DNA of 64,000 nt from an uncultured Erysipelotrichaceae bacterium (lineage in GTDB: Bacteria; Bacillota_I; Bacilli_A; Erysipelotrichales; Erysipelotrichaceae), in assembly GCA_902775735.1 (NCBI GenBank), contig CACYNH010000005.1, forward strand, positions 1 to 64,000, given 5' to 3'. Under the pieces are notes generated by a model that made no database searches, was not told the origin of the DNA, and saw only the letters and a program-made list of their open reading frames with translations. Of the stretch, positions 1,595 through 26,522 are shown one piece after another. Position numbers and translations under genes: made by a program. Within the stretch, counting starts at the first letter, position 1. Each line of letters starts with the position of its first letter.

Positions 1595-1626
1595 ACAAAA
1601 ACAGCAGAGAAAACTCCCTGCTGTTA
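1595..1626 (-). terminator. Terminator of the pyr operon
   Basis: Minus-strand hairpin with arms ACAGCAG..GAG and CTC.CTGCTGT around a T-rich loop, followed by a T run. It lies just after the pyrE stop codon. Confidence 0.75.
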
Positions 1627-1632
1627 TGAATA

Positions 1633-2281
1633 TTACTCGGTGGCGCCGTATTCCTGATAGTAAGCGTCGATTCTGCCAAGAAGCTCATCGTCAAGCGCGT
1701 TCTTCTCTTTGAGAATCTCAACAACTTCCTTCATGGAGACAATGGCGGCTGTGGGGAAGCCGTAAAGATCCGCGATTTCAGCCAGGGCTGTCTTGTTTCC
1801 TTTGCCCTTTTCATTGCGGTTGAGGGAAACGATCAGGCCTTTGATTTCAACATCCGCCTGGGCTCTGACGATCGGGACGGTTTCTTCCATGGACTTGCCG
1901 GAAGTGGTGACGTCTTCGATCATGATGACGCGGTCGCCGTCTTTGAGCTTGGATCCCAGCAGGATGCCGGTATCGCCATGGTCCTTGACTTCCTTGCGGT
2001 TGGAGCAGTAGCGGACCTCTTTGCCATAGAGTTCATGGATGGCCATGCATGTGGCGACGGCCAGCGGGATGCCCTTGTAGGCAGGGCCGAAGAGGACGTC
2101 GAAATCAAGACCGAAGTTGTCGTTGATCGCCTTTGCGTAATAGCAGGCGATCTCGTGGAGCTGTCCGCCCTCGACATAAGCGCCGGCGTTCATGAAGAAC
2201 GGGCTCTTCCGGCCGGACTTCAGGGTGAAGTCGCCGAACTTGAGGGCGTTGCACGCCAGCATGAATTCGGTAAACTGCTTC

Positions 2282-2295
<14 letters not shown>
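1633..2295 (-). CDS. pyrE: Orotate phosphoribosyltransferase
   Basis: Converts orotate plus PRPP to OMP, step 5 of UMP synthesis. The 220-aa protein carries the PRPP-binding segment VIMIEDVTTSGKSMEE in its second half and the orotate-side segment KSGRKSPFFMNAG near residue 30. The start at 2295 (MEEYKK) is chosen because AAGGAGA lies six bases before it; an upstream in-frame start at 2313 has no such support. It is the last gene of the pyr operon and overlaps the end of pyrF by 14 nt, so translation is probably coupled. Confidence 0.96.
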
Positions 2296-4624
<2,329 letters not shown>

Positions 4625-4628
<4 letters not shown>

Positions 4629-5899
4629 GCTTCTTTCCTCCATACGGTTTTTCCGGAAACGATGGTTTCCTTCACTTCGCATCTGACTGTCCAGCCGTCA
4701 AACGGCGTGTTTCTTCCTTTGGAGAAGAAACTGTTTTTGTTAATAACTGATTCTTCGCCGAGGCTGACAAGGATCAGATCCGCGTCATATCCTTTTTCGA
4801 TTTTTCCTTTGTGTTGCAGACCGAACCGCTCCGCCGGCTTTGTGCTCATCCAGTTGACAAGCTGGCCAAGGGTCCATCTTTTCTGTTTATAAACAAATTC
4901 GGTATAAAGAAGCGGGAAGCTGGTTTCCAGTGAGATGATGCCGAAGGCGGCATTTGCCATCGGTTTGTTTTTGTCCGCTTCCGTGTGCGGCGCGTGGTCG
5001 CTGGCGATGAAATCAAGGGTTCCGTCCTCCAGCGCTTCGATTAATGCCATCCGGTCTTCATGGGTGCGCAGCGGCGGATTCATTTTCCAGTTGGGGCCTT
5101 TGACATCTCTGTCTTCAAGAAGAAGATGATGGGCGGTGACTTCAGCGCTGACATCCAGTCCTTTCGCCTTGGCGGCTCTCAGGGCATTGAGGCTTGTGAT
5201 CGCGGAAATATGGCAGCCATGGTAGCGCAATCCCGTTGTCTCAGCCAGCTTCAGATCGCGTTCCAGCTGGGCGCTTTCGCATTCGGAAGGAATTCCCAGC
5301 CAGCCGTTTTCCGTGACGGCAGGACTGTCATGGACGCTGGCGCCGGGTCTTCTGTAATTCATGTCTTCGGTATGGCATGCCATCAGGGCGTCAAGGCGTC
5401 TGACTTCCTTCTGCGCTTTTTCCATGACCCCGTCGTTTGCCACGCCGACCCCGTCGTCGGAGAACCAGCGGATGCCGAGCTGTTTCATGCCTTCCATGTC
5501 AGAGACTTCCTCACCCTTTTCCCCTTTTGTGATGGTGCCGTAGGGAATGACGTTGACATAAGCGTCCTGTCTGATTTTTTCAAGATAAGCTTCCATCGTC
5601 TGCTTATTGTCAGGGAACGGATTGAGGTTGGGCATCGCGAAGATTGTCGTAAAGCCGCCATGGGCAGCCGCCTTTGAGCCGGTGGCGATGGTTTCCTTGT
5701 GCTCAAATCCGGGCTCGCGCAGATGCACATGGACATCGATGAGGCCGGGCAGTACCGCCATGCCTGAGGCGTCGGTGATTTCAGCGTCCGCTTCAATGTG
5801 AGGGGCGATTTCAAGGATGCCGCTTTCGTCAAATAAGAGTTCCAGGTTTTCCAGGGTGCCGTTAATCAGCACCTTTGCGTTTCTGATGATGCGCTTCAT
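4625..5899 (-). CDS. pyrC: Dihydroorotase
   Basis: Cyclises carbamoyl aspartate to dihydroorotate, step 3 of the pathway. The 424-aa protein is the type I amidohydrolase form: the metal motif DVHVHLREPG lies near residue 58, and later ligands sit in CHTED, HISAITS and ASDHAPHT. The start at 5899 (MKRIIRNAKV) has AGGAAGGAG seven bases upstream. The frame stays open to 6001, but that stretch runs through a terminator hairpin and an overlapping leader ORF, so it is not taken as coding. First structural gene of pyrC-K-D-F-E; pyrB and carAB are not in the window. Confidence 0.96.
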
Positions 5900-5923
5900 T
5901 GCCTGCTCCTTCCTGTCTGTTTT

Positions 5924-5956
5924 AAAAAAACAGCTTCTCTTGGAAAGAGAAACTGT
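5924..5956 (-). terminator. Intrinsic terminator in the pyr leader (attenuator)
   Basis: Minus-strand arms ACAGTTTCTCTT and AAGAGAAGCTGT pair over 12 bp (one G-T) around a TCC loop and are followed by T7. It sits between the leader ORF stop (5964) and the pyrC RBS, so transcripts ending here would never reach pyrC. The position and form are those of an attenuator. Confidence 0.88.
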
Positions 5957-5963
5957 CAAAGAA

Positions 5964-6056
5964 TCATATGAGTCGTGAAAAGAAAGAAAAAACGCAGACA
6001 CGATCAGCCATAAGGACTTCAGGATTGGGTTTCAACAGAGTGATTGTACCTGCCAT
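5964..6056 (-). CDS. Predicted 30-aa pyr operon leader peptide
   Basis: A short ORF, not previously annotated as far as I can tell, starts with ATG at 6056 behind a strong RBS (AAGGAGG, 5-nt spacing). It encodes MAGTITLLKPNPEVL, then MADRVCVFSFFSRLI, and stops at TGA 5966-5964. Codons 22-27 (VFSFFS) are written with a U-rich tract (16 nt, 13 T, about 5992-5977). The stop lies 7 nt before the attenuator stem, so a ribosome ending there would cover the 5' arm. This layout mirrors the E. coli pyrBI leader. The peptide itself probably has no function beyond being translated. Detection is from sequence; the regulatory role is inference. Confidence 0.75.
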   Translation of the reverse strand: MAGTITLLKPNPEVLMADRVCVFSFFSRLI

Positions 6057-6077
6057 GCCTGCCTCCTTCTTTTCTTC

Positions 6078-6100
6078 AGGAAAGAACCGGATTCCTTCCT
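6078..6100 (-). promoter_or_regulatory. Hairpin early in the pyr leader RNA
   Basis: Arms AGGAAGGAA and TTCTTTCCT pair over 9 bp (one G-T) around TCCGG, a few nt after the predicted transcription start and before the leader RBS. There is no U-tract, so it is not a terminator. It could be a pause or mRNA-stabilising hairpin. Confidence 0.5.
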
Positions 6101-6103
6101 GTC

Positions 6104-6139
6104 GTGATGTATTCTAGCATAAGAGCCACCGATTGAAAA
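6104..6139 (-). promoter_or_regulatory. pyr operon promoter
   Basis: Extended -10 TGCTAGAAT (TAGAAT at 6116-6111) with a weak -35 TTTTCA at 6139-6134 and 17-bp spacing. Predicted start of transcription near 6104, about 48 nt before the leader ORF ATG. Confidence 0.6.
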
Positions 6140-26016: not shown

Positions 26017-26522
26017 AGCAATCCCTCCACGACATGAATGACAATGGTCTTTTCATCAATGTTCACTTCTTTGATGAAAGCAGGCACATAGGGAATCAGC
26101 GCCTCGCCGCCGTCTTCCTTTTCAATCCTGAGGTAATTGTTGGCGCCGAGTGTTTCCTCGATGTCAATGACTGTTCCGATTGCAGTTCCGTTTTCATCAG
26201 CCGCCTTCAGGCCTCTCAGTTCAGAGCGGTAGTATTCTCCCTCTTTGAGAGGTTTTCTTGATTCCTGATCAATATAGATTTCACATTCTTTATACTGTTC
26301 GACCAGGTTGATATCCTGCATGTCCTTAAAGCTGACAAGCGAAAAGCCCTTGTGGCTGCGGAAAGAAGCCGTGATGAAAGGAAGGTACTTTCCGTCTTTT
26401 AAAACATAGACAGTGTTTCCTTTCTTATAGCGGAGCTCATCAAAATCAGAATAGCTTTTGATTTTCAGTTCTCCCTTAATTCCGAATGTATTGACGATTT
26501 TGCCGATGCAGATATATTCCAT
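26013..26522 (-). CDS. rimM: 16S rRNA processing protein RimM
   Basis: Helps 30S head assembly by binding S19. The 169-aa protein has the N-terminal barrel (IGKIVNTFGIKGELKIK) and the PRC-barrel segment (GEYYRSELRGL...IPYVPAFIKEVN). The start at 26522 gives the conserved N-terminus; an extension to 26564 runs back to the khpA stop and has no RBS. Confidence 0.95.
   Translation of the reverse strand: MEYICIGKIVNTFGIKGELKIKSYSDFDELRYKKGNTVYVLKDGKYLPFITASFRSHKGFSLVSFKDMQDINLVEQYKECEIYIDQESRKPLKEGEYYRSELRGLKAADENGTAIGTVIDIEETLGANNYLRIEKEDGGEALIPYVPAFIKEVNIDEKTIVIHVVEGLL

Follow-up and report, generated by a model that had tools for sequence, protein, structure and literature searches.

The DNA analysed here, which we call the window, is a stretch of 64,000 nt from a member of a genus within the Erysipelotrichaceae, whose own genome assembly amounts to 2.26 Mb and is 86% complete. 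On the minus strand, Pfam assignments gave five pyrimidine genes in the order pyrC-K-D-F-E, preceded by a XerC-like integrase gene. The interval between xerC and pyrC and the operon itself contain the following features, all on the minus strand and given in the direction of transcription:

6111-6139, minus strand: promoter TTTTCA-17-TAGAAT with a TG-extended -10, read from the sequence
6077-6101, minus strand: hairpin 1 (5' hairpin), 25 nt
6054-6075, minus strand: 5' strand of a predicted SD:U-tract helix, -25.7 kcal/mol
6062-6068, minus strand: SD of the leader ORF, AAGGAGG, at the homologous position in sister species
5964-6056, minus strand: leader ORF encoding MAGTITLLKPNPEVLMADRVCVFSFFSRLI, 30 codons plus stop (ATG 6056, TGA 5966-5964)
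5976-6003, minus strand: 3' strand of the SD:U-tract helix in the predicted fold
5977-5992, minus strand: U-rich tract TTTTTTCTTTCTTTTC within the ORF, 16 nt of which 13/16 are T, the proposed UTP-sensitive pause site
5924-5957, minus strand: intrinsic terminator, made up of a stem-loop at 5957-5929 (12-13 bp, -15 kcal/mol) and T7 at 5930-5924
5905-5912, minus strand: RBS of pyrC, 3' of the terminator and ahead of the ATG at 5899
4625-5899, minus strand: pyrC, dihydroorotase (Pfam)
3897-4682, minus strand: pyrK, dihydroorotate dehydrogenase B electron transfer subunit (Pfam)
2989-3897, minus strand: pyrD, dihydroorotate dehydrogenase (Pfam)
2282-2992, minus strand: pyrF, OMP decarboxylase (Pfam)
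1633-2313, minus strand: pyrE, orotate phosphoribosyltransferase (Pfam: phosphoribosyltransferase)
1600-1625, minus strand: operon terminator after pyrE

A sequence-only reading had listed a promoter, a hairpin, an RBS, a 30-codon ORF, a U-tract, a terminator and the pyrC RBS in this interval, and every one of them was found where it had been placed, which confirms that the observed leader architecture is real. It had also given a spacing of 21 nt from the U-tract to the stem and a stop codon 7 nt before the hairpin; in the focal leader we measured about 20 nt for the former and 6-7 nt from the TGA to the terminator stem for the latter. As a whole, the 221-nt leader folds more strongly than shuffled sequences (z = -2.8). 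In the sister species G137 the equivalent site holds the promoter TTGCAA/TAGAAT. Hairpin 1 carries a T7 tail in five sisters and in the pyrBC leaders of the genus, a tail that has been lost in the leader of the window.

The window contains 53 strong terminators on both strands, 11 of which immediately precede a gene start. Among the 11, two end a small ORF that bears an SD, and within the 64 kb only the pyrC leader combines this layout with a U-tract (12 T in 14). The second such small ORF (MASALRQVMSVASHAEDKKVTIKFEQI; 26649-26566, minus strand) ends at a terminator ahead of the gene start at 26522 and has no U-tract.

The succession xerC-leader-pyrC is common to 11 species of one genus. In all 11 genomes pyrBI is also preceded by a leader built in the same way, and their pyrB belongs to the class with a pyrI partner. 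In the case of the genome under study, the pyrBI leader is located on another contig (C52) than the pyrC leader; its ORF encodes MKCIKADRHPNDFMKNLMVLYFRVSV, the terminator that follows (GGTTTCCG..CGGAGACC) has a T-run, and the stop falls inside the hairpin of this terminator. The leader set therefore comprises 22 leaders (11 pyrC and 11 pyrBI), all from one genus. They are not independent, as they stem from a single genus with one to three origins, and consequently the p-values given for them are too small. An intrinsic terminator was present between the promoter and the first pyr gene in 22/22 leaders, that of the G148 pyrC leader being judged by eye. An SD-like sequence precedes the leader ORF in 18/22; the pyrB leaders of G106, G148, G151 and G160 are without one, and their ATG follows the -10 by a few nt. 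As a side observation, the clade II leader ORFs upstream of pyrB (L164, L168, L169, L172), with an ATG a few nt past the -10 and no SD, are possibly leaderless.

No leader of this kind was found at carAB, where carA sits after argF or other genes, nor at the xanthine/uracil permeases examined. In the case of pyrG, no U-tract ORF was present, and a different terminator-like hairpin was. In other members of the genus and family, pyrBI mostly lies after pyrE or has no leader. Two further elements were seen along the way. Upstream of pyrG (L246, L247, L251, L253, L255) there is a promoter-proximal terminator, AGAGGGC(A/G)ATAAA...TTTATTGCCCTCTTTT, whose 5' arm lies near the likely transcript start and which invites comparison with the pyrG control of B. 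subtilis. In L258, L261 and L262 a conserved operator-like palindrome, TGTAAGCGCTGTCAT, stands upstream of a gene for a xanthine/uracil-type permease.

To describe where the leader ORFs end, the ATG and the hairpin were held fixed and the remainder was shuffled. The stop fell between just before and inside the terminator hairpin in 21/22 leaders, compared with 6.2 expected. This test is generous, since the ORFs were chosen partly for stopping near the hairpin; on the other hand, most of the chosen starts are also those that have an SD. The one exception is the G148 pyrC leader, whose ORF reads on across the terminator until it overlaps the start of pyrC (ATGA). A constant stop-to-stem distance, which had been named as a sign of conservation, was not seen; the stop can precede the stem by up to 6 nt, lie up to 26 nt inside it or, in one case, fall beyond it. 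The gap from U-tract to stem varies from 0 to 20 nt across the leaders.

Stop placement had also been counted as part of the geometry, a point that calls for a correction. At 16 ordinary gene ends in the window the stop lies -15 to +26 nt from the terminator stem, mostly -6 to +13. Thus, the focal stop position alone proves little, because ordinary genes also end near their terminators, and its 6-7 nt are unremarkable for this genome. The leader set as a whole does run deeper into the hairpin: 15/22 leader ORFs reach at least 7 nt into it, compared with 1/16 ordinary gene terminators (p = 1.7e-4). Phyla are called 'runaway' on the strength of such short distances from stop to terminator. The Bacillota have been classed as a phylum with 'runaway' transcription (PMC13323073). 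This weighs against attenuation, and the leader would work only if a pause restores the coupling of transcription and translation.

All 22 leader ORFs are rich in U at the 3' end, even if the enrichment in G146 taken alone is not significant. Within the final 39 nt, the T fraction is 0.42 compared with 0.31 after codon permutation (Wilcoxon 5e-7, 22 leaders). The T content is about 0.2 at the beginning of the ORF and reaches 0.43-0.46 over its final two fifths. Alignment with relatives, the check set out beforehand, bore out the expected pattern: the reading frame, the initiation region, the U-rich 3' part and the stop at the hairpin are kept, and the peptide drifts neutrally. In detail, six comparisons of close pairs of equal length gave 11 synonymous changes against 56 non-synonymous ones, which is close to the neutral ratio, with differences spread across all three codon positions. 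In the case of the G161 pyrB leader, the frame is shifted relative to its sisters and the new stop is still at the hairpin. A neutral peptide in a kept frame is what one would expect where it is important that ribosomes translate as far as the hairpin, and the product is of no importance.

In the predicted fold of the focal leader, the SD region (6075-6054) pairs with the U-tract (6003-5976), which leaves the SD largely paired. Among nine pyrC leaders, the SD pairs with its own U-tract better than with swapped ones (-17.6 compared with -13.6 kcal/mol, permutation p = 0.0007), a p-value that is rough in view of the relatedness of the species. The helix shows base changes on both sides, namely GGCAGGC:GTCTGC in the focal leader, GGCCGGC:GCCGG in G137 and GAGATGCCG:CGGTATCTC in G148. 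In the pyrB leaders no such preference for the own partner was found (p = 0.29).

These observations can be read in several ways. One is that the terminator is real and the leader acts mainly through translation or through sequestration of the SD in the helix with the U-tract, or else shows constant leaky readthrough, in any case without sensing UTP. The preference of the SD for the U-tract of its own genome and the pairing of the SD in the focal fold are in line with this; the pyrBI leaders, however, have the ORF, the U-rich end and the terminator without the complementarity. Because of this lack the helix does not belong to what all leaders of the design have at their core, and we regard such a reading as unlikely. 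Another possibility is that PyrR, some other RNA-binding protein or a riboswitch binds the leader RNA. PyrR does occur above the cut-off in 25/70 genomes of the genus, and PyrR-like loops are present in the family members L027-L038. At the family level, pyrBC operons have either a PyrR-like loop or a 5' hairpin only. The genome search for pyrR that had been proposed (NF003549) nevertheless found the gene in 0/11 leader genomes, the own genome included, compared with 25/59 non-leader genomes (Fisher p = 0.006). The earlier statement that no PyrR-type binding loop is visible was also borne out: no RF00515 RNA reached the cut-off in the genus or in the window, and Rfam applied to the window and 12 relatives returned RNase P and a tRNA only, with no element at any leader tested. 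Moreover, the leaders are too divergent to hold a conserved binding loop, with the exception of hairpin 1, whose focal copy has no T7. Binding by such a regulator is therefore largely refuted. As to the matches themselves, the RNase P RNA is of class B (RF00011; 41986-42326 of the window, minus strand), and a match to MIR844 (E 0.37) was rejected as chance.

An attenuator of the trp/his type, in which a ribosome starved of aminoacyl-tRNA would stall in the ORF and switch the RNA fold, would also present a leader ORF followed by a terminator. Leader peptides of this class have been reported in Firmicutes (PMC2965389, PMC5794164), and Phe codons, the commonest, occur in 20/22 tails. Yet no amino acid is common to all 22 tails, others being found in fewer, and there is no run of a single codon. 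The peptide changes at a neutral rate, the stop is placed at the terminator or within it and not far upstream, and the genes serve pyrimidine synthesis. Sensing of an amino acid is thus quite improbable. Inspection of the predicted focal fold, and of that fold only, revealed no apparent antiterminator hairpin exclusive of the terminator. It could finally be argued that the ORF encodes a small protein, is followed by a terminator of its own and lies ahead of an unregulated pyrC by coincidence, given that ordinary genes here end at similar distances from their terminators. Against this, the peptide is not conserved, the 29 nt between terminator and pyrC are too short for a further promoter, and a leader built in this way is also found before a second pyr operon that is not linked to the first, so that this explanation is hardly credible.

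Overall, we favor a pyrimidine-responsive transcription attenuator that is pyrBI-like, UTP-sensitive and ribosome-mediated, to which we give a probability of roughly three in four. The sequences and their comparison establish the parts and their order, the conserved frame, the neutral peptide, the occurrence at two operons, the lack of PyrR and the complementarity of SD and U-tract. That pausing depends on UTP, that readthrough depends on ribosomes and that the SD helix has a role are inferences only, as there are no bench data, be it on expression, pausing or ribosomes.

According to this attenuator model, polymerase would initiate at the promoter (6139-6111) and make the leader, and a ribosome would load at 6068-6062 and translate the ORF. 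With plentiful UTP, polymerase would pass the U-tract quickly, stay ahead of the ribosome and terminate at 5957-5924. With scarce UTP, it would stall in the U-tract and the ribosome could close the gap, trailing polymerase to the stop at the foot of the hairpin or, in most relatives, inside it. There, the ribosome would hold the 5' arm of the terminator unpaired, and pyrC-K-D-F-E would be transcribed; the second copy of the design would control pyrBI elsewhere in the genome. If polymerase normally outruns the ribosomes, the leader would terminate unless something intervenes, and the ribosome would gain access only through a stall in the U-tract. In the pyrC leaders, the completed U-tract may additionally pair with the leader SD and exclude a late ribosome, giving a sharper response. 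Comparable steps have been described in E. coli, where coupling across the pyrL leader blocks formation of the terminator (PMC5021804), the terminator acts at normal UTP because ribosomes still lag behind over the first 100 bp, and ribosome and polymerase are brought together by pause sites (PMC4824070).

With respect to origin, nine related species have the order xerC-[5' region]-pyrB-pyrC. In the clade I leader species (G000, G137, G144, G098, G161, G136), a pyrB-type 5' hairpin and SD are followed by the leader ORF in place of pyrB. When L046, L048, L053, L055, L058, L060, L064, L065 and L067, which have the order xerC-pyrB-pyrC, are compared with 6148-5899 of the window, the start of the leader ORF corresponds to the start of pyrB. 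This suggests, at the level of sequence comparison, that the leader ORF replaced a lost pyrB and that pyrBI took over elsewhere. In a PyrC tree the 11 leader species fall in three places among pyrBC species, and one origin is not excluded. Viewed side by side with E. coli pyrL, without a formal homology test, the leaders are unlike it. The coincidence of the pyrC-leader start with the pyrB start of sister operons points to an independent origin; the leaders look independent of that of E. coli, and we do not claim membership by descent. Evolution of the attenuator in place within the Erysipelotrichaceae appears to be the best explanation. More tentatively, the U-tract of the pyrC leaders may be at once a UTP-sensitive brake and an anti-SD, in which case the attenuator, evolved at the site of the lost pyrB, would be decided by whether the ribosome loads before the U-tract is made, a scheme that is workable despite an outrunning polymerase; we consider this possible, with the odds against it.

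Separately, a conserved hairpin after the promoter, AAAAAGG-loop-CCTTTTTTT, was noticed just ahead of pyrB in L046, L048, L053, L055, L067, L013, L064 and others. It is variable in sequence, has about -10 to -18 kcal/mol and is followed by GAAAAG..GGAGG and pyrB. It occurs in PyrR-less pyrBC operons without a U-tract leader ORF, and also 5' of the ORF in five pyrC leaders. It could be a terminator with its 5' arm near the 5' end of the transcript, or a switch that masks the SD.

Pyrimidine operons of Firmicutes are taught as PyrR-controlled, and UTP-sensitive attenuation by a leader peptide is taught as enterobacterial. We found no report of the latter in a Firmicute in the open-access literature, most subscription papers being outside the scope of the search. 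If the attenuator is as proposed, it would be a case of convergence in which a protein regulator has given way to a translation-coupled one, and this at two operons simultaneously. New details are the predicted pairing of the pyrC-leader U-tract with the leader SD, and ORFs that, as read from their positions, mostly enter the hairpin, unlike the ordinary genes of the genome. The proposed attenuator also bears on whether coupling of transcription and translation is possible in the Bacillota, classed as 'runaway' (PMC13323073), and because the switch needs a pause for the ribosome to catch up, this could be tested at the native locus.

Among known systems, the his and ilv leader peptides of Firmicutes share ribosome-mediated attenuation with the leaders described here, whereas they sense amino acids through cognate codons (PMC2965389, PMC5794164) and no codon is shared here. 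The PyrR-dependent pyr attenuators of B. subtilis (RF00515) likewise place a terminator before pyr genes in a Firmicute; the 11 genomes, in contrast, lack both the PyrR gene and the binding loop. In the rph-pyrE attenuator of E. coli, a terminator lies shortly after a translated ORF and depends on coupling. That layout is common to both, but the upstream ORF is a full gene there and a free-standing leader ORF here. E. coli pyrC and pyrD are controlled by a start-site switch with an SD hairpin, and thus resemble the present case in allowing an SD within a pyr leader to be sequestered; here, however, the SD is that of the leader ORF, its partner is the downstream U-tract, and there is no evidence of start-site switching.

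E. coli pyrBI, to which the sequence-only reading had likened the locus, has in common with it the promoter, the SD, an ORF without regulatory codons, the U-tract, the intrinsic terminator and the pyrimidine genes downstream. Measured identically, pyrL has a 9/14-T tract 14 nt before the stem. A spacing of 14-20 nt between U-tract and terminator is among the shared features, and pyrBI would be a controlled operon in both. The comparisons thus support the pyrBI-type reading, with the reservation that the E. coli ORF crosses the terminator and ends beyond it, whereas the ORFs here mostly end at or in the hairpin; only the G148 pyrC ORF resembles pyrL in running through. Peptide and RNA are unlike. 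In contrast to E. coli, pyrC-K-D-F-E would also be controlled here, the U-tract is complementary to the SD in the pyrC leaders, and the host is a Firmicute without PyrR.
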